Origin: Cavenderia fasciculata
Lineage: Eukaryota; Evosea; Eumycetozoa; Acytosteliales; Cavenderiaceae
Reading direction: 5' to 3'
Length of the DNA: 64,000 nucleotides
Assembly (NCBI RefSeq): GCF_000203815.1
Contig: NW_004457639.1
Coordinates: 868,001-932,000 of the forward strand
The translations under genes and the position numbers were made by a program. Under the pieces are notes generated by a model. That model was not told where the DNA came from. It saw only the letters and a list, made by a program, of their open reading frames with translations, and did no database searches. How positions within the stretch are numbered: position 1 is the first letter of the stretch; each line of letters opens with the position of its first letter. This document shows positions 1-51,400 of the stretch, piece by piece.

Positions 1-2
1 CT

Positions 3-95
3 AGTATAAATAGTAGTGTTAGTAGTAGTAATGAAAATAATTGTATCGATAGTAGTAATAATAATAGTAATGTCAATTTGGACCAACCATCTTCC

Positions 96-146
<51 letters not shown>

Positions 147-275
147 GATATTATTCCAAATGTTAATAATAATATACCAAATAGTAATAGTAATAATAAT
201 AATAATAATAATAATGTACCAATAGTTGAAACCAATATCCGAAGAGATGAAGATGATGGTGATCACAATGTTTAA
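3..275 (+). CDS. C-terminal end of an Asn/Ser-rich protein (5' partial)
   Basis: The frame is open from the window edge and ends ...DEDDGDHNV followed by TAA. About 90 codons are visible and nearly all are Ser or Asn, with two AAT-repeat runs coding poly-Asn, then a short acidic tail. No domain can be seen, so no function can be given. Poly-Asn tails are common in dictyostelid proteins. The reading frame, the absence of stops and the change of composition after the TAA support coding. A GATA microsatellite follows at about 292-320. Confidence 0.6.
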
Positions 276-551
276 TTAATTAAAAATATTCATAGATAGA
301 TAGATAGATAGATAGATAATATAATAAATTATCGATCTGTCATCACCACTATGATCGATCAAACAAAGAGGAATTGATTTCCATTCCATTCCGCTCAACG
401 TTTATTCAATACACCACAAATTTGATTTAATTAATTCTTTTTGTTTTTTATTGCATCGTCACACCCCCATTATGCATTCTTATTTCGCATTGAAACATTG
501 TCTACATACATACATACATACATATATTTCAAGTCTTATTTATATATAAAC

Positions 552-1244
552 ATGTCTTCAAGGACTTACATCTCACGTATGATACTTGTAGCATGCTTGC
601 TTACAACAACACCGCGTTATACTAACATCATACAATTTTTTTAGAGGATGGGTCAGTTGGGAACAAGAATACAAGTATTTGGAGAGTATCAGCGATACCA
701 GAATTCTTTTGGTACCTACTTAATCAAATCACTTGTTTGTAAGTACCACACTACTACTTTTATTAAAGTTATCAAGAACATTACATTGATTGATTAATTA
801 ACCATTTCCTATATCATTACATCTATATTAGCTTTCACACTTTAGTTTCAGTAGGTTCATCTTTTTACACAGATAGAGAGAGAGATAGATAAAGAGAGTA
901 GAATAGAATAGAATATACTAACAATGTTACATTATAAGGACCCAGCAACAGATAAATACAAGAAAACAGGTAGATCTCATTCCGGTGGCGGAGGAGGTGG
1001 TGGATATGGTGGAGGTGGAGGTGGAGGTGGTGGAAACCATAGAGCTGGAGGATTTGGCAGAGTAGCTACAATGCAAAATGTTTGTATGTATCATAAACAT
1101 AAACGTAGTGCTTGGTTGAAAAGATAAAACAACAATCAACAAAAATGGATCCTATTTATTTATTTATTATTCATTATTAATTATTTTTAATCTATATTTA
1201 TTATAGCAAATTGTGATCTTCCACAAGGAGGGTGATCTAGATAA
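552..1244 (+). CDS. selK: Selenoprotein K (Sec encoded by TGA at 1233-1235)
   Basis: Five exons: 552-576, 645-738, 832-850, 939-1083, 1207-1244, giving 106 residues with Sec at 104. The N-terminus reads TYISQDG. It is followed by SIWRVSAIPEFFWYLLNQ then CFFHTL, which aligns with human SelK SPWRLSLITDFFWG and FFKTL (family knowledge, from memory). A Gly-rich basic stretch follows, then GG-U-SR and TAA, matching the family ending GG-U-GR. SelK is a small single-pass ER membrane protein linked to ER-associated degradation and to DHHC6 palmitoylation. The exon sum is 321 bases, in frame throughout, and all splice sites are GT-AG. A SECIS hairpin lies 340 bases downstream. Ordinary gene prediction would end at the TGA or keep only the 67-codon ORF in exon 4. 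The family assignment is strong; Sec insertion is inferred from the TGA context plus the SECIS. Confidence 0.88.
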
Positions 1245-1576
1245 ATGCATTTAAATCCAATCTAAATGTGTACCTCTGTTACATTCTTTTTTTTTTTTTC
1301 AAGAAGAACTGGTATGGATGGACGGACGATAAATCGATTGAAATCATTCACACTCTACTACCAGCAATTCTACAAGTAGACGCACAGCACCAATTTAAAT
1401 TATTCTTAAATTGGTTATTTTATTGTTGGAAAAAAAAGAAATGGTTAAATAGTTTCACAAAGAGGTAGATTTAAATGCATTAATATCCTTTGGAAACATT
1501 CAATTTGGGGAATGGTTGATGTAACGAAATATGTATTGTACAAAAAGTATTTATTGTATAAACAATATATTATATT

Positions 1577-1646
1577 ATTGTTGTGATGACTGGAACTACC
1601 CTAACCTTTGATCAAGGAGGTAGTTTCATGAAAAATGGTCAACAAT
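1577..1646 (+). promoter_or_regulatory. SECIS element of the selenoprotein K gene (type II)
   Basis: Basal helix ATTGTTG (1577-1583) pairs perfectly with CAACAAT (1640-1646). The 5' quartet TGAC (1587-1590) faces TGAA (1629-1632), giving the tandem G.A/A.G core. A 10-bp helix TGGAACTACC (1591-1600) pairs with GGTAGTTTCA (1619-1628) with one G.U. The unpaired AA is at 1603-1604. A small extra stem CCTT/AAGG (1605-1608, 1614-1617) closes a 5-base loop, which makes it form II. All SECIS hallmarks are present in the right order and on the right strand, in the 3' UTR of the only TGA-interrupted gene here. Confidence 0.85.
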
Positions 1647-1684
1647 TCCCTTTTTTGATATTTCCAATTAATCAATTATTACAA

Positions 1685-1752
1685 ATCAAATAAAATGTAT
1701 ATAAAATATAAATATAAAATAATCCCTGGTTTGATTTGGTTTGATTTACAAG
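1685..1752 (+). repeat. Direct repeat, upstream copy, flanking the broken cathepsin gene
   Basis: The sequence AAATAAAATGTA...TAAAATAATCCCTG followed by TTGATTTGGTTTGAT recurs, slightly shortened, at about 3208-3250 just after the cathepsin pseudogene. Identity across the shared blocks is high by eye. The simplest reading is a segmental duplication of 3' flanking DNA of the protease gene. Confidence 0.55.
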
Positions 1753-1901
1753 TCAGAAGATTCGAACTATAATTGGTTAGGAAATCTCGATCCCGGAATT
1801 GTTCCTTTTTTTTGGAATTCTGAGGGAGGAAGAAGAGACACTTTCAAATTCATCAGCTCTTGTTATTCTTTTACTGTTTATTTTAACTAGTAACGAAAAA
1901 G

Positions 1902-3085
1902 ATGAAGTCACTCGTCGTTGCTATAACTATTCTCTTCTTTGTAGCTTTGACTTCTTCAATAAATCTTTCTCCTGAAGGTATATAAATATTTAAATATATA
2001 ATCAAACAGATCGTACCTGACATCTGACATGATGATCAATCTATAGTCATAGAACTATCAAATTGAACATCTGAAATAGTTAACTACTTTTTTCAATGTT
2101 CCCAAAAAACTAACCAACTTGTATAAATTTTCTTTTTCTATTTGCCTCACTACTTTTATAGAAATTCAATTCCAGGATTTCCAAGCCAAGTATAACAAAA
2201 CCTATACTCCAATGAATTTGGTTCAAAGTTGGTAACTTTCACGGACAACTTGATCAGAATTGCAGCTCTCAATACCATCGCTCTTGCCTCTGGCTCTAAT
2301 ACCATATTTGCTGTCAACCAATTTGCTGATCTCACTGCCCAAGAGTTCCATCAGATCTACTTGATGAACAATGTCCCAACCTCTATCCCAGATAATGCCC
2401 CAGTGTCTACTCTCTCCTCTGACCATATCCTTTCTCACCTTTCACCGGGAATTGATTGGAGAACCATGGGTGCTGTCGCCTCAGTCAAAACCCAAGGTCA
2501 GTGTAGTTCTAGTTGGGCATTCTCTGCCATAGGAAACATCGAAGGGCAATTCTTATCAAACAATCAACTCGTTGATCTCTCTGAACAGAACCTGCTCGAC
2601 TGTGATCATCAATGCAAGATCATCGACAGCGGTGGTATTACTAATGAACGAGATTACCTTACAAGGCTATAGCTGGCAAAAAGAGTTCAACGCATCCCAA
2701 CCTGGAGTCAAAATTTCCGGCTGGGTAATGCTTGGCACCAACGAAACCGAAATAGCTGCCTCCGTGGATGTACATACAAAAGTGGTATTTTCGACTTACC
2801 ATGCAACGATAATGACCTCAACCATGCTAGCCTTTTAATCGGGTACGGATCACAGCCCAACATATTAGGTCTAGGTAAAAAGCCATACTGGATCATAAAG
2901 AACTCCTGGGGTCCTGATTGGGTATGTATAACTCTACCTTAATTTCTTTTGAAAACAAACAAAAAACTAACGACTCTATCTTTATTAATAATCAAAAGGG
3001 AGAGAAAGGTATCATGAAGATCGCCCGTGGTGTTGGCAAATGTGGTTTAAACCAATTAGTCTCTACATCTTATGTGGTTTCATAG
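1902..3085 (+). pseudogene. Decayed papain-family cysteine protease (cathepsin) gene
   Basis: The start encodes a good signal peptide (MKSLVVAITILFFVALTSS). An intron (1978-2161) follows, then a pro-region with QFQDFQAKYNKTY and NQFADLTAQEF. The mature part has [45 protein letters not shown] (catalytic His region) and [13 protein letters not shown] (Asn region). The last intron is at 2921-2997 and the frame ends LVSTSYVVS-TAG. The gene is broken: the frame shifts near 2225 in the pro-region and again after the DCD region near 2640, and part of the middle is missing. The catalytic Cys of the usual QGQCGSCW motif is Ser here. The parent would have been a lysosomal or secreted endopeptidase of the cathepsin F/L-like group. 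Similar repeats lie on both sides. Confidence 0.8.
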
Positions 3086-3207
3086 GAACAATTAGATTAC
3101 ATAAAAGTAAATAAATCATATATTTCAACTACACTGAACCATTTTAAAGATAATCGATTTATATTTTTCCAACCGGATATTAAATGACCGCCCATATATA
3201 TCACTTT

Positions 3208-3253
3208 CAAATAAAATGTAAAATAATCCCTGTTTAATTTGGTTTGATAAATG
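3208..3253 (+). repeat. Direct repeat, downstream copy, flanking the broken cathepsin gene
   Basis: It shares CAAATAAAATGTA, TAAAATAATCCCTG and TTTGGTTTGAT with the block at 1685-1752. Both lie outside coding DNA, one before and one after the protease pseudogene. Confidence 0.5.
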
Positions 3254-3360
3254 TATACATGTCTGTTGTTATTTCCTGTTTTGTTTTGTTTCGATTTCTT
3301 TTTTATTATTTGGTTGGGGGAAAAAATATTATATTATATATTATTATGGAACAAAAATGA

Positions 3361-4068
3361 TTATTGTTCCTCGAGTGCTAATGAAAATACAGATTCAGAT
3401 TGATCACTTTGATTACTAATATCATTTGGATCACCAAATTGTGATGAATAATAATTCTTTTAAAAATAAATATAGAAAATAAGTAAAATTGGAATTGGAC
3501 TATTAATAATATTAATAATAATTAATTATTTACCAATAAAGTAACCTTGTAATGAGTCATTAATGCTGTTTTGCCTTGAAAATGTGGAGCTGTCATATTC
3601 CGATAATATTCAAAGCCAATGGTAGCCGTCGCCTTCTTGTCATACTTTTTTAAGATCTTTCTCATTCCATCTTGGTTTAATTGAATGAATGCCAATGATC
3701 CTTCTACCTCTTTACAAGTATTCATGATTTGTGCTGCATCTGGTGACTAAACAAATAAACATATTGTGTGTCAATAAGATACAAAAATTCGATTTAAATC
3801 TAAATCTAAATCTACATACATTTCCTAATAACTTTACTTTGTTACCAATAGATTTCTCTCTATCAGACATAAACTTTTCAATCTTTTGAAATTCTTGCCA
3901 CAGTGAACGAAGAAAGACTGTACCTCTATCGGATCTATGGAGTCCACGAGCTTGAAGAGCTTTATCGTCACACAACTCTAACAAAAGCTTCTTCATCTCT
4001 TTATAATCTAAATAATGTTCTTGCCATTCTTCTTCTCTATTATTCTTTAAGTACTTTCCAAATTTCAT
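3361..4068 (-). CDS. SPX-domain protein
   Basis: Three exons on the minus strand: 4068-3820, 3746-3534, 3456-3361, giving 185 residues. The N-terminus MKFGKYLKNN...EWQEHYLDYKEMKKLL is the SPX helix hairpin with its lysine cluster. The next exons give SLAFIQLNQDGMRKILKKYDKK, the third conserved SPX helix (IQLNxxGFRKILKKxDK in the family). SPX domains bind inositol pyrophosphates and sense phosphate status. This protein is an SPX domain with a short acidic tail (ALEEQ end) and no EXS, RING or VTC domain, so it resembles stand-alone SPX regulators rather than the XPR1 exporter. Splice sites are canonical and phases match exactly. The family is sure; the target is unknown. Confidence 0.88.
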
Positions 4069-10563: not shown

Positions 10564-10575
10564 ATGATCAAGTGA
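10564..10575 (+). promoter_or_regulatory. Possible minimal upstream ORF of the ABCG gene
   Basis: ATG ATC AAG TGA ends 8 bases before the ABCG start codon in another frame. If the transcript begins upstream of it, this could reduce initiation at the main ATG. The transcript start is unknown, so this is only a possibility. Confidence 0.25.
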
Positions 10576-10583
10576 GGAAGGAG

Positions 10584-13020
10584 ATGGAAGAAGATCAACA
10601 ACAACAACAACAACAACAATTTAATAGTAATAATAATAATAATGATGGAGACGATGAGCAAGTCACAGCAGCGACAATGAGTCCTCTACCATCATCACCA
10701 GCATCGATGATAAGTTGTGATGATAGCGAGGAGGTAGAGATGTTTGTAGATAGCAAGCAGAATCGTAGATACTCTGTTGCTGCAGACTCGACAGCAGCAG
10801 CACAACCCATATCACAGGACGGTCACGACATTCCCATCAACTTGCCAATATCATCAAATCCACAGGTTATGACAATGTCATATGACAGCAGCTCAGTTGC
10901 ATCGTCTTCTTCAGTACCCATGGTACCTGTATCAGTGTCACTGACCGCTCCATTGAGCTACAAGAGTACGATGGATAATGCAGCCAATATGAACAAGGTG
11001 CCTATCACTATCACACTCGACAAAGTATCGGTTATACTTAAAAAAGACCAAAAGAGTAAAGATGGAGGTTCATCATCATCGTCTGGAGCTACATCACCTC
11101 CACAAAGTAGAAAGAAAAAGCTATTAAATAGTATCAGTGCAGTGATACGACCTGGTCAATTGACAGCTATCTTGGGTGGGTCAGGATCAGGTAAAACAAC
11201 ACTGCTAAATACTATTTCTGGACGTTACGATTCATCACAGATGCGTGTAGATGGAGATGTATTATTTAATGATATAGTGTCGCCACCACATTCACTCATC
11301 AAGCGTAGTGTTGGGTATGTCATGCAAAAGGATTATTTGTTACCCAATTTGACAGTACGTGAGACACTCATGTACAATGCTCTCTTGCGTATCCCATCGT
11401 CAGTGTCACATGAAGACAAGGTGAAACGTGTCGAAGCTGTTATATCAGAACTTGGTCTGCGTGACTGTGCCAACACTCGTATTGGAGGTGCTGGCAAAAA
11501 GGGTGTGTCTGGTGGCGAGAAGCGTAGAGTGTCGATTGGATGCCAGCTGCTTACTGACCCAAGTATAGTGTTTGCCGATGAGCCTACAAGTGGTCTAGAC
11601 AGTTTCACAGCCTTTCAAGCCGTAAACACTCTCCAATCGATTGCAAGGCAAAACCGTACAGTCATTTGCACGATCCACCAACCACGATCCGATATTTTCA
11701 AATTGTTTGATCAGGTCATGTTACTTTCCAAAGGTCAACTAGTATACATTGGTGATATTCCATCCATGCACCAACACTTTTCCAAATTAAACTTTATTGT
11801 TCCCAAGTTGGAGAATCCTGCTGATTATTTTAGTATGTTTGGAAAAAAAAAAAAAAAAAAAAAAAAGAAATGTATTTATTTATTTATTTCTATTATGTTT
11901 AGTTGACATTTGTTCAATTGATTATAGATCATTGGCATTGGAACAACAATCAGTTGATAGATTGAGACTGTTGATTGATGGATACAATGGATCGAGTTTA
12001 CACGAGAATTTATTAGAGGAGATTGGTAGACACCGTGCTGAAATTACTCAACAAGATGTGGAGGTGGTCAAGACTGCCAAGGGTTTAAAGAGGATATTTG
12101 CGGGTGGCAGTAGGAATAGGGAGGAGGACATGAAACTGTCATCTCAGTTGCGTGAAGAACTACCATTTTACAAGTCAGTACCAATCTTGACACGACGATC
12201 CTATGTCAACCATTTACGAGATATTGAAGCATCGATCACTAGATTCTCACAGATCGTGTCATTTGGTATCATGATGTGTCTTTGCTTTTTAAGACTTAAA
12301 GATGACCAATACTCGGTGCAGAATAGGTCTGGTTTCCTCTACGAATCATTATCGATGATTTTTGTGGCACTTCTTAATTGCGTAGCACTCTTTCCCGTCG
12401 AACGAAACTTGTTTTATCGAGAGCGGTTTGACGGGCTGTACAGCACCGTTTCCTTTTTCTTTTCCTATATGTTTGTCGAATTCCCGTTCAACGCAGTGTC
12501 GTCACTCGTGTTTACGACGGTCGTCTACTTTGTACTCGGACTCAACCAAGAGTCACCGGCCCATTTCTTCCGATTTGCACTGACCATCTTTATACTGTTG
12601 TTTTCGGGCGAGTCGGTTGGTCTCTTTGTCTGCTCACTCTTTTACGATGTCGGTATGGCTACGACCATCTCCAACGTACTACTCTCTCTATTTACACTGC
12701 TGTCTGGTTTTTTCCGTCCCAATGACCAGTTCCCCCAAGTCTTGCAAATCATAAACTATGCGCTGCCGACCAAATACGCGGGTGAGATTGTCGCCATCAA
12801 CGAGTTTCGTGGACAAACATTTGTTTGTCCAGGCTCACAATCGCTCGATGGAAATGGTACAGTCTGCCCCATTTCCAACGGTGAGCAAGTACTCACAAAC
12901 TATGGATGGGAAGATACCAACATCAATCATTCCATTGCCATCATGGTAGCATTATCAGTTGCTTGGAGAATCATCTCATTATTAGCTTTACAATTCAAAA
13001 AAACTACCATTGTATCATAA
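10584..13020 (+). CDS. ABCG-family half-transporter (WBC type)
   Basis: Two exons, 10584-11832 and 11903-13020, 788 residues. I chose the ATG at 10584 because the frame upstream has no other ATG. The N-terminal 150 residues are Gln/Asn/Ser-rich. The nucleotide-binding domain has Walker A GGSGSGKTT, Q-loop VMQKDYLLP, signature VSGGEKRRVSIG, Walker B IVFADEPTSGLDS and H-loop TIHQPRSD. The splice joins NPADYF to IDICSIDYRS, as in the family (NPADxFLD). The second exon encodes about six membrane segments and an extracellular loop with CPGSQSLDGNGTVCP. This is the reverse half-transporter order (ABC then TM) of subfamily G; it should act as a dimer exporting lipids or hydrophobic compounds. The intron holds a run of about 23 A. 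The substrate is unknown. Confidence 0.93.
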
Positions 13021-21405: not shown

Positions 21406-24400
21406 TTAGATTTGAGCAATCTTTAAAATCTTTCCAAGTCTTTCACAGAGCTTAGCGGCAGATGGTCTCTTTTTCGGGTCCAAATCAAGACAAGAATAAA
21501 CAATTTCGAGTAGGGGTTGGAAGGATGGAGGAAGAGTATTGTTGAGGATGGGAGGTGGAGTACCCTTTAAAATCATTTCAATGGCTTGTAAATGCGAGAA
21601 TTGGTGGTAGGGAGTACGAAGTGTGACAATTTCAAAGACGAGCATGGCGTATGACCAAATATCAGCCTTGATGGTGTATCCGTCTGTATCCTCGGTCGTA
21701 TTAATGTCAAGCACTTCAGGTGCCATATAGATGGGTGACCCGATACAAGTCTTTAGTGTGACACCGCTAGCCAGTACTTTGGACGTGTCAAAGTCGCAGA
21801 CACGGACATTGCTGACACGGTTGTTCTCGTCCATCGAGCACATGATGTTACCGGGCTTGAGATCGCGATGGATGATGGGTGATGGCTTTTGAGTGTGCAA
21901 AAACTCGAGTCCCTTGCCAATCTCGAGTGCCATCCAAATGGCGTCGGCGTATGGGAACGGTGACGTGCGGTTGGCGATAATATCCTTGAGCGAGAAGGGG
22001 TAGTACTCCATAAACAGCCATAGTCGGGGGTCGGGATTGTTGGTCAGTCTGTGACCGAGGTACTTTGCAATGTTTTGGTGACTGAGCTGCTCCATGATGC
22101 TAATCTCGCCGACAAACTGGTCGATGAGGTAGGTCTGCGTGTTTTTGAGCTTGAGCACCTTGACAGCACACGTTAGACCGTCTACAGTACAACGATTGAC
22201 TGTACAACCAGAGCCACCGCTACCTATCGGCTCACAAAGCTTGATTTCAGAGCTTTGGAAATCGATAGCACCTCGTTGGGCCGTCCAGCTAGTCTCATCG
22301 GGACGACGGTTACCAGCCTTTTTACGTTCGATTGCGATGTGGTTTTGGATACTGTTGACCCAATCGTCACGATCACGTATGCTCTCAACACAGAATGTAT
22401 ACGAATCTTTAATTTCGTCACGGCTACCAGAGTCACTTGCTGCGTTGGCCACTGCCGACGATGCCGATGAGATGCCATTGATGATACCATTCAACACATT
22501 GTTGGTGGATGTCTGGCCAACAGGCTCACTCTCATTGACGGTAAAGGTGATTTGGAAGAGTGGTTTATCCTCCAACACAGCATCCGACACTATAGTCACC
22601 TCGGAATCAATCAACCGAATGATTCTCTTGCACATGAATTGTGTCTTTTTCTGCACAGACACTACCATCAAATCATTAAACAAGAATACATATAATTGTT
22701 GTGGTGTTCCCTTTGTAGATTCTGTTAATAATCCTTCTTTAACATATCTTCTATGTGGTTCATTAAGGTTCTAAAGAAAAATTAAAATTAATAAGAAATA
22801 AGTTTAAGTATGTATTTTCCAGGTTTTTCCAAAAATTAATTAATTTCTATTCTATACATACACTATACTTTGAATCTTTGTTTTGAATTAAATGTTCTTG
22901 AATAAATCTAACCTTGTTTTGACTGTCATATTCTCTTGTCTTTTCCTTTACACTTTCAAGAATTGATTTCATTTTAGTTACAGCCTTTTAAATATAAATA
23001 GTAAATAATAAATAGTTAGTTGACTTGACTTGACTTGTTTGATGATTCTAATTTGTTTGTTTGATTGTTTCTAATTTGTTTTTCTTTCTACGTACATCAC
23101 GGAAATAAGTAAAATCAGGATGAGAAACAGGAGTACTCTTCCAAAGATCTGTCAAGGAGATTGTGTATTGTCCAATTCTATTTAAAGGCAATAACAAAAG
23201 ACTTCCTAATCCCGAGAAACTCGAATCCAATCCTTTTTCCTTTTCTTGAATAAATGTTTGGAATCTATGACTATCTTCTTTTAATTTGTTCAATACTGAT
23301 AATGATGTATAGTAATTGGTTACATATGGTGAATATAATTTAAAGTAATCACACTAAATATAAAAAAAGAAAAAGAATTAATTAATAATTTGGTCAAAAA
23401 CTCCTCTGGTTATATAAATAGCTTACAAGTTTAAGGAAAGCTTCACCAAGACCAACATTTGAAGTTTCACTTAATAATTTTTCCAAATCTTCAATGAGAA
23501 GATTACTGGATCCACGGATAACTTGAATCTCGCTAAATACTTGTTTGACTTGAGCAGCAGAGATGAATGGATTGGCCGAATGGTAGGACTCAGCTGATAG
23601 AGGAGTAAGGAACTCATCAATGATAAGATGGAGGTAGGCAAGATACTCCTTTTCAGATTTGAGTATATTGTGTGCTGTAATACGACGACTTTCAATCATT
23701 GTAATGTACTCTTCCTCGGTTAGATTCTGTGTAAAGTCCATCTCAATACCATAGGATCCTGATAGTTGAGTGGTCGTAGTGACAGAGTTTGAACTACCAC
23801 GACGTTTATGTGATGGTTGTTGTATAGCATTAAGTGAATTGGTCGTTGTTAATACTGGTGTGGCAGATGTTGTTGTGTTCACACCACCATTGCTAACAGT
23901 GACATTAATCGAGCTACCGCTGTGTGTATTGATGTTACTATTATTATTATTATTATTATTGGTATTATTGTTATTATTTACAGAGTTGTTGTTTGATAAA
24001 GGTGAAGAGGTTGAGTTGTTAGATGGAGTCGCCGTAACTTGTACAACTGGGGTCGCAGCAGCAGCAGCAGCAGCAGAAGTAGAGATAAATGATGTTGTGG
24101 GATTAGGACTATTTGGAATATTGATACTAACAACTGATTTGGTTTGTGGGAGATCCTTTTTACCAAGTGTGACTGCACGTGGACGCTCTTGTACAGCAGG
24201 TGATGAAGGTGCAATCTTGGGTGACCCCTTGATATCCACTCCGCCGCCGCTACCGACAGAAAGCTGACTACTACTGTTGTTGTTGGTACTACCAGGTTTA
24301 GATGACACCAAGTCATCAGTAGAGGTATCAGTCATTGCAAATGCCAATTGGTTAAATGACAATCTAACATTCTCCATCTTATTGGACAACTTTCCATATT

Positions 24401-25502
24401 TCTGTTTCCAAGCTGTTAGTTCAAGACTCAACTTTCTATTATCCTCTTGCAACGATTTGACCAATAACTTTAATTGATCGTGAGAATACTTTTCGAGAAA
24501 TAGTTCTTTTTTAAGATCCTCGAAAACCACCGTTGAACGAGCTTGGTTTTTAGTGTTGGTACCTGTCGATTGTGTATATTGTTCAGAATAACTTGATGCA
24601 TTGTCATTGACGATACTTGCCGAGCTTGGACTTTTGGTGATTCCAGCTTCGGTGGCAGTCTTTTCTGTTGGGTTATCATGTTGTTGGTGTTGTTGATGTT
24701 GTTGTTGTAATAGGAGATCGGCTGCTTCAGAAAAGTCAGTCATTGTATCGGGGCTATTGACAGAGGCCCTGTTACTAAACGATGCGGGACGAGGTGGTAA
24801 TGGAGGTGGTGGTGTTTTGACACTAGAAGAGGAGGCACCCATATTGCTCAATGAGCCTTGTCGCTCACGTGCATCTTCAAAAAATGTCAACAATGCCTTG
24901 AGTGAGGGTCTACTCACTGGCATGGGGTCGGTTTCTTCAGTGATGCTGCCAGCATACGTAAAATATTTTGCTTGGTGTGGATCCGACATGATATCAACAA
25001 GCAAATTCCTTAAATCAACTATTTGTGATTGTGATCTATTATGAACGTTAACGTTTGTTGAAAGATCGGAAGAAGAAGAAGGTGTTGTTGTTGTTGTTGT
25101 TGTTGGTTGATTTGTAGTTGTTGATGTGGTAGTTGTAATAGTTGTTGTAGGTTTTTGATTTAGTTGATAACTATTTGTACTATTTCTATATATCTGTTGG
25201 TTATTAACAACATAGTTTGTATTTGGAATTGGTGAGGATGAGGAGGGTAATGAAGATCGATTTGGATTTGGATTTGGATTTGGATTTGTATTTGTATTTG
25301 TATTTGAATTTGGAATTGTAGTAATTGGATCATTTTTTGTTATAGTTGTTGTAATAGTTGTTGGTTTAGTATTATTATTTTTGTTGTTGGTTTTACCGAT
25401 AATAGGAGCAGTGAATAATTGTTTTATAGATGAAGAGGAAGATGATGATCCATTTGGTTTTGGGTTTGAATGATTATTATTATTATTTTTAAAGGAAATC
25501 AT
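21406..25502 (-). CDS. kxcA/kxcB-like: RhoGEF (DH-PH) and protein kinase fusion, Kxc type
   Basis: Four exons: 25502-23427, 23353-23096, 22984-22862, 22770-21406; 1273 residues, phases exact. The N-terminal 580 residues are Asn/Thr/Ser-rich, with a Pro-run (PPPPLPPRP) and a short coiled coil (DQLKLLVKSLQEDNRKLSLEL). The DH domain follows (RITAHNILKSEKEYLAYLHLIIDEFLTPL; later LLLLPLNRIGQYTISLTDLWKSTP). Next is a PH domain (RRYVKEGLLTES...LYVFLFNDLMVVS; ending DWVNSIQNHI). The C-terminal kinase has GSGGSGCTVNR, AVKVLKL, IIHRDLKPGNIM, CDFDTSK in place of DFG (DFD) and SPIYMAPEVL. D. discoideum kxcA and kxcB have this same order (kinase and exchange factor for Rac), from memory. It should activate a Rac GTPase at membranes and carry kinase output. 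Which of the two it matches cannot be told here. Confidence 0.88.
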
Positions 25503-48414: not shown

Positions 48415-51400
48415 TTAGGCTTGAGCCCTCTTACTAGATAATTCTGTTAATTGAATATCTTGTTTAATTCCTCTTCTTTCCGTAAGGATTTGGACATCCA
48501 ATGGATGATATTGCCATTTATAACTAAATTGAATGATGAAAATTAATAAATAAATATATTGTGTATGGGAAGATTATTATTATTATTATTTGTTTAAAAA
48601 AATACACATACTATTTAATAACAAAATCTGGTACCAATGCAATAAATACAGAAATAATAATTACAAGGTGGAATGTTATAGTCTTTAATTCAAAACCTAA
48701 GAAAATAAATTAATTAATAATTGTTTGATCTTTTTGATTATTATTTTGATTTTTGTTTGATACATACTAAATATATCATACATATTTGGACTAAGAGGTA
48801 AAAAGTAGGCATAAAACATTAACATTACAAAATAGGATAAGAGGGAGATGGCAAGTCCGATACCAGTGAAAATATTCCAAGTTCTAACCTCGAGTGCCAT
48901 ACGTAGGTTGGCTATGAGAATGGACGAGGTGGAGATGAGTGTACCGTAGGACCAGATGCCAGCAGTGAGTCCGTTGCTATTGACAATATCATTGTCAAAG
49001 AGGAAACGGACGGAAAAGTAGACAACCAAAGAATGCCAGATACCGGCAATGATCCAAAGGAAGAATGATCGACGTGTCAAGAGAGGGGACGATTGGAGAC
49101 GACGGTAGATTTGGGGATTCTCCATAATGGACTCCTCATCAATATCACGTTCAAATAGACCGTAAAAGAAAGGTGGTAGAGAGGTAAAGAGGATATTGTA
49201 GAATGTAATAATCCAAGAATCAAAGATGGTCTGACCTGTAAACAACGAGCTAAAAGAGAACCATAGCAAGCAAAAGGTGAAACTCATGTTTTTGTAGAAC
49301 GAGTATTGGATGAGTCCAGCAACACGAATATACGAGAAACGACCGTGTACGCAGAGTAGTCGTTTGAGATGTGAGAATTGGTGTATCGAATAATCCGATG
49401 CACGTGCAGCCTGTGTTCCTTCTTTGCCATAGATACCAATACCGACATGTGCCTCTTGAATCATCGACACGTCATTGGCACCGTCGCCAATAGCCAGCGA
49501 TATCTTTTTCTCACTCTCCTTGACGACACGCACAACCAACGCCTTTTGGAGTGGAGTCACACGACAGCAGATGACCGACTTGCAGGCACGTCCCAACCGC
49601 AAGAACTTGTCCTTGTGATCGGCCAGTGCAAAGGCCAGGGTGTTTCCATCAATGACGAGACCATACTCGAGTTGGAGTTGTGGCGCGATGACCTGGTCGT
49701 TGAGTGCGCCCGGGAGGTTCGACGGTGCGGCCGACTTGTTGTTGTTTGAGCTGGAACTACCGCCAATGAACCCGAGCAAACCAGTACGCTCCTCAATCTC
49801 TGGGGGCAGCAGCGCAATGTATCTGTCGAGGATCTGGCCGCACTCCTCGCTTGTCTCGGTGTTGACAAAGATGAGCTCCATGGCCGGGTCAAAGAGACGG
49901 CACGAGTAGCCAATGTTGACGGCTGTCTCTTGCTTGTCGCCTGTGAGCACCCAAATGTGCATGCCGGCTTCCAAGAGGTAGCTGATGGTCTCGGGGACGT
50001 GGCATTGGAGTCGGTCCTCGATGGCGGTCGTGCCGACGAGCACCATGTCCTTTTCAATGAGCTCGCAGACTGCTTCGACGCGCTCCTCACGGTTGTCGAG
50101 CGACGTGGTGGCCTGCAGGAACGAGTGCTTCCACTCGTCAAACTCGTCTTGGGTGAGGTCGCGCTCGGCGAGCATCAGAGTACGCAGACCCTCTCTTGAG
50201 AAGATCTTGAGGTAGTTGAGTGTCTCTTCGTGGTACGAGTGGCGGTCGCGGGATGTCAACCGGCAGGAAATGGCCATATCGGCACCCTTGCAGAGGAGTT
50301 TGATCCCACCCTCGGGTGTGCGCACAATGACCGACATACGACGACGGGCCGACGAGAACTCGAGGATAGCCAACAACGCATACGCAGTATCCACGCCATT
50401 CTCGCGTACAATGATCTCATCACTCTTTCGATTCACGAAAAAGTATCCATTGTTTCGTGCGGTCTGGACAAGTGCCAACTCGTCAGGTGACTGTGACTGA
50501 TAGGTGATGTTTCCAGTCGCTTCTTCCAACTCGGACACGACAGTATGGCATAATGAGAGTACACGTAAGAACGACTGGATACGCGAGCTACGCACAGACG
50601 CCTGTGCAGCCAAAGAGGTGGCCAACCCACCCGTATTCTCACGTTCATCAAACACGTCCAATCCAACCGAACACTTGCAGAACCGCATATCATTCTCGGT
50701 GAGTGTGCCAGTCTTGTCGGAAAAGATGTGCTGGATGCGCCCGAGATCCTCGTTGAGGTTGGAGGTCTTGGCCTTGGCACCCTGCTCGGCGAGATCAGTG
50801 CGGGCATACGTCGACAGCATCTGCTCGTCCCATTGCATGAACCGGGCCTGTCCGACCTTGACCATCTCCAGCGTGACCCACAGCGAAATAGGGATCATCG
50901 TGTTAAACAAAATAAAGTAGGTAAAGAAGTTACGCACGCCATACACGGCCAACGAGTATGGTGTCTTGCCAAGATACTCCATGTATCGTGCACTGTACTC
51001 CTCGTAATAGGCCGATGCTACCGAACACAACAAACACAGTGTCAACAAGAATACAAATACATAGAGAATCAATCGATTCAACAAACGTTCCACCGTTGAG
51101 AATTTCGATGGTGGAGGTTGTTGATTTAAATATAATTTTGTATCAACTCCTGTATAAACACAAACTGCAAATACACTCTTTGTATTACGTAATTGTGATC
51201 CCTATAAAATCAAATCAAACAAAATCAAAAGTTAATATAAATTATACCAATATCCATATTTGTTTGTGTTAATATTTACTCTTTGTAAAAACATTGTATG
51301 ATTTAAAGAGACAATTGAAGTTTCTTGGCCTTGTTGTACAAATCTACCATTGAAACGATATAATCTTTCATTTGGTGTTTCATAAACTACACTTCCTCTA

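Follow-up and report, generated by a model that had tools for sequence, protein, structure and literature searches.

A probable dictyostelid selenoprotein K gene with an in-frame TGA and a type II SECIS-like element downstream

In eukaryotes the SECIS is bound by SBP2 and Sec-tRNA is delivered to the UGA by EFSec, and animal selenoprotein K (SelK) carries its selenocysteine (Sec) in a tail that reads GGUGR. Animal SelK is described as residing in the ER membrane, where it works with DHHC6 in palmitoylation (PMC10650576). Closer to the gene considered here is the set described from Dictyostelium discoideum, which comprises SelK, SPS2, Sep15, MSP and a deiodinase homologue and uses type II SECIS elements (PMC2375036, Lobanov et al. 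2007). The SelK family is well known and already reported from this related amoeba, and a SelK gene is ordinary for such a genome. In the open literature covered by our search nothing joins "Dictyostelium fasciculatum" with selenoprotein; the gene could already carry an annotation in the sequence databases. In the same literature "dictyostelid" or "Polysphondylium" joined with selenoprotein led only to a paper on D. discoideum tRNA (PMC13063481).

Compared by description, the locus resembles D. discoideum SelK in its family, in taking Sec from a UGA and in having a type II SECIS, and the genome likewise holds SPS2, Sep15 and a Sec-containing deiodinase homologue (PMC2375036). The D. discoideum set as described there also includes MSP, whereas the genes located here are SelK, SPS2, Sep15 and the deiodinase homologue. 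The protein is like animal SELENOK as described in having one predicted membrane segment and a Gly-rich basic tail (PMC10650576). Its Sec is also the third residue from the end and follows Gly-Gly, as in animals, but the tail here is U-S-R and the Gly runs are very long. Vertebrate SelK is reported to have a splice site immediately beside the stop codon (PMC3316567), while the last intron here ends 26 nt before the TGA.

The gene lies in a stretch of 64,000 nucleotides, which we call the window and in which positions are given unless another locus is named. It has five exons and four introns at 552-1244 on the plus strand, starting with ATG at 552 and closing with a TAA that ends at 1244. The parts are as follows.

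552-576, plus strand: exon 1, M-S-S-R-T-Y-I-S, in phase 1 at its end
577-644, plus strand: intron 1, GT..AG, 68 nt
645-738, plus strand: exon 2, the bulk of the hydrophobic segment (joined frame, Pfam match, genome search)
739-831, plus strand: intron 2, GT..AG, 93 nt
832-850, plus strand: exon 3, 19 nt, FHTLVS
851-938, plus strand: intron 3, GT..AG, 88 nt
939-1083, plus strand: exon 4, Gly-rich tail (joined frame, genome search)
1084-1206, plus strand: intron 4, GT..AG, 123 nt, giving a Sec-less tail if retained
1207-1244, plus strand: exon 5, with TGA (Sec) at 1233-1235, then Ser, Arg and TAA
1689-1694, plus strand: AATAAA, the sole one within 1245-1950

Joined by script, the exons give 321 nt in one frame, or 107 codons, in which 103 sense codons precede the TGA (codon 104) and Ser, Arg and TAA follow it. 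The sequence-only reading had proposed five exons joining in frame across four introns at 552-1244, with the TGA as a Sec codon third from the C-terminal end; the coordinates proved exact, every intron is GT..AG, and Ser and Arg follow codon 104 as that position demands. Its figure of 67 codons for the longest single frame fits the exon-4 frame counted from the first ATG; measured from stop to stop, that frame has 71 codons (912-1127). Other open frames that overlap the locus are 69, 74 and 75 codons long. The AATAAA at 1689 is likely to be the polyadenylation signal behind the SECIS.

A search with the SelK_SelG profile had been suggested from the letters as one check on the identity of the protein, and it bears the assignment out. 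With Sec written as C, the joined protein scores 63.8 bits against Pfam SelK_SelG (PF10961; E 2.3e-17), for which the curated cut-off is 23.3, and a resemblance at this level points to more than chance. The match is not driven by glycine, since the N-terminal 57 residues score 52.7 bits alone and the Gly-rich remainder alone has no match to the family; the reversed protein, used as a control, does not match the profile either. The match ends at position 73 of the 86 in the profile. The score is therefore the same without the last three residues, and the Sec tail rests on its position and on the SECIS, not on the profile.

Glycine makes up 22 of the last 60 residues, and in this tail nine K/R/H face three D/E. 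The best 19-residue Kyte-Doolittle mean is a modest 1.08 (residues 23-41), below the 1.6 usually taken as the threshold for a confident membrane helix, so the helix is predicted mainly from family membership. When the whole genome (30,995,898 bases in 21 contigs) was searched with the joined protein, the two matches, at E 4.0e-25 and 1.1e-15, were the two larger exons of this gene, and so no second SelK locus was seen. The PF10961 profile run against the genome gave no match here, nor in 14 prokaryote controls, because exons are scored one by one in such a search. A PDB search with the protein listed 60 of 88 matches; none of these was named SelK, and most lay in the Gly-rich part.

The case for Sec insertion draws also on the region downstream of the gene and on the rest of the genome. 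An Rfam search of window positions 1-4000 gave six weak matches up to E 10 and SECIS was not among them, so we used a hand-written descriptor, which requires ATGAC, 13 nt, A[AC], TGAA and a helix score of at least 6. Together with folding, it defines the following element.

1577-1646, plus strand: SECIS-like element, type II (hand-written descriptor and fold)
1577-1583 paired with 1640-1646, plus strand: helix I
1586-1590 and 1629-1632, plus strand: the core, ATGAC and TGAA
1591-1600 paired with 1619-1628, plus strand: helix II, 10 bp
1603-1604, plus strand: unpaired AA of the apex, which also has a CUAA bulge and the mini-stem CCUU/AAGG

The core begins 342 nt past the TAA, and the core, helix II and apical AA required of a SECIS in a 3' UTR are all present. 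The descriptor, which was written after this element had been spotted by eye and whose A[AC] was broadened so as to include SPS2, has a single match over both strands of the 64 kb window, namely the one at SelK (1586-1632). Sixty shuffled windows, again on both strands, average 0.083 matches each with none scoring 9.5 or more, and shuffles of the 658-nt region 3' of SelK give a match once in 3000. A looser descriptor, allowing any GA in the 3' core, finds five window matches scoring at least 8; three of them reach 9.5, the SelK element among these. By itself the 9-mer TGTGATGAC is not telling, with two copies in the window where 0.84 would be expected. Folding of 1570-1646 returns the SECIS structure with a 7-bp lower helix (z -2.10; 7 of 200 shuffles at least as stable). 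When the longer segment 1560-1670 is folded, the mini-stem and helix II persist, but the 5' strand of helix I finds other partners (z -1.56; 16 of 200).

The element differs in detail from the SECIS elements of D. discoideum as these are described (PMC2375036). Those have UGUA before the core, and here TGTG precedes ATGAC by our own pairing. They have a U-U mismatch just after the core (elsewhere in the deiodinase one), whereas here a C faces a U, and in place of their unpaired AAA the apical bulge here is CUAA.

Three further selenoprotein genes were located in the genome. Sep15 scores 68.3 bits against a cut-off of 26 and has one in-frame TGA in the context ICRUR. One exon of SPS2 reaches 130.4 bits against 125, with the UGA in the context KGUGCK, and one exon of the deiodinase homologue, related to thyroid-hormone deiodinases, reaches 34.8 against 27, with the context SYTUMP. 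The ends of these genes were read by eye. At each of the three loci the best match of a loose scan is a hairpin with an ATGAC...TGAA core lying 3' of the gene.

Locus L004, 1380-1460, minus strand: Sep15 SECIS candidate, ATGAC...TGAA core
Locus L005, 802-878, minus strand: SPS2 SECIS candidate, ATGAC...TGAA core
Locus L007, 1737-1814, plus strand: SECIS candidate of the deiodinase homologue, ATGAC...TGAA core

An AA stands exactly 13 nt after ATGA in three of the four elements (SelK, Sep15 and deiodinase), and SPS2 has AC there. The folds are uneven. The SPS2 candidate has z -2.47, with 7 of 200 shuffles at least as stable. For Sep15 (z -0.12; 84 of 200 shuffles as stable) and for the deiodinase homologue (z -0.24; 75 of 200) the minimum-energy fold does not contain helix II, and MAFFT alignments of the elements did not bring helix II into register.

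Part of the Sec machinery is found as well. The presence of a Sec tRNA and of SPS2 in the same genome had been named beforehand as a check, and both turn up, SPS2 through the exon and the KGUGCK context given above. The genome search for tRNA-Sec yields three matches, of which one, at 61.4 bits, passes the cut-off of 47; ARAGORN calls this one tRNA-SeC with the anticodon TCA. All 14 control genomes have a match at the E-value limit and only 5 of the 14 have one over the cut-off, so it is the cut-off that decides for tRNA-Sec. The two weaker matches are not tRNA-Sec; ARAGORN assigns them to tRNA-Ser(TGA). SepSecS is present at 407 bits against a cut-off of 21.1, and a second, marginal match to it has 22.4 bits, just above that cut-off.

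Other parts of the window were looked at as well. Directly 3' of SelK, at 1902-3085 on the plus strand, is a gene for a papain/cathepsin-like cysteine protease that looks broken. It matches Peptidase_C1 in two pieces, profile positions 4-64 and 150-194 of 220, with the middle uncovered; both pieces share one frame, and there is a stop in between. Its QGQCSSSWAF has Ser at what we take to be the position of the catalytic Cys. The Pfam scan took nine of the ten window frames with at least 300 codons. Four frames pass Pfam cut-offs (10572-11906, plus strand; 21406-22683, 23394-25502 and 48697-51093, minus strand), the families being ABC transporter, protein kinase, RhoGEF domain and phospholipid-translocating P-type ATPase. 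Of the other five frames scanned, four have no Pfam match and one shows a HEAT repeat that stays under the cut-off.

We are confident that the locus is an intact SelK gene of a eukaryote, most likely a dictyostelid, with SECIS-dependent Sec predicted at UGA 1233-1235. The size of the genome, its AT richness and AAT repeats, and the set of selenoproteins suggest a dictyostelid, perhaps Cavenderia fasciculata. The four short introns would be removed from its transcript to leave an mRNA for a protein of 106 residues. This protein would have a short N-terminus and then one hydrophobic segment, which probably anchors it in the ER membrane; a basic tail rich in Gly would follow and end in Gly-Gly-Sec-Ser-Arg. 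The Sec machinery would be drawn to the mRNA by the type II hairpin of its 3' UTR, and the UGA would be decoded as selenocysteine by the tRNA-Sec(UCA) present in the genome. By analogy with the animal protein, the amoeba SelK may also act as a partner of DHHC6 in palmitoylation and contribute to ER homeostasis.

It is worth setting out what else the locus could be. The protein might be made with the UGA serving mostly or always as a stop, so that the product ends -Pro-Gln-Gly-Gly and has no Sec. Reading the UGA as Sec requires the full Sec machinery, and the literature on D. discoideum lends this idea something: SelK is reported as the undetected one among five selenoproteins in 75Se labelling (PMC2375036), and the single tRNA-Sec gene of that species is described as apparently under constitutive repression at the stages examined (PMC13063481). 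We nevertheless consider it highly improbable against a genome that carries tRNA-Sec, SPS2 and SepSecS and a hairpin at 1577-1646 whose core is common to three other selenoprotein genes. That same hairpin, standing behind a spliced form that directly yields the GG-TGA-SR tail, argues against a main transcript in which intron 4 is retained, as do the GTATGT donor and TTATAG acceptor of this intron. The reading frame would allow retention, since it stays open into intron 4 until a TAA at 1125-1127. The product would then be 108 residues long, lack Sec and carry the tail MQNVCMYHKHKRSAWLKR; we give this even less credence as the main product. A Sec-less isoform arising in this way would end CMYHKHKRSAWLKR (window 1084-1127).

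Of the readings considered, we find it hardest to credit that the locus is a SelK pseudogene. Decay does occur in the region, as indicated by the broken look of the papain-like gene that follows SelK at about 1902-3085. Against this, SelK has GT..AG at all four introns and an intact frame, and it is the sole SelK locus found in the genome. It is not a retrocopy, because the introns are kept.

The residues before the UGA deserve a comment. Read with UGA 1233-1235 as stop, the protein would end Gln-Gly-Gly. Truncated human SelK is reported to expose a C-terminal di-Gly degron and to be removed through KLHDC2 (PMC12035522). The Gly-Gly here might by analogy be a fail-safe, such that at low selenium the UGA acts as a stop and leaves a -Gly-Gly C-end degron of the kind read by CRL2-KLHDC2, an idea we regard as tentative and rather unlikely. 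The chance of two Gly at that spot is roughly 0.13, given the glycine content of the 60-residue tail, so the parallel with the human degron is suggestive only.

Ordinary gene finders would miss or cut short a SelK gene of this kind. SelK, Sep15, SPS2 and the deiodinase homologue, four selenoprotein genes with a common SECIS-like core in one genome, are enough to build a SECIS search specific to the clade. With -Gly-Gly standing in front of the UGA, an amoeba can serve to test how old selenoprotein quality control is, and if the fail-safe is real, the destruction of failed selenoproteins would predate the split between amoebae and animals.
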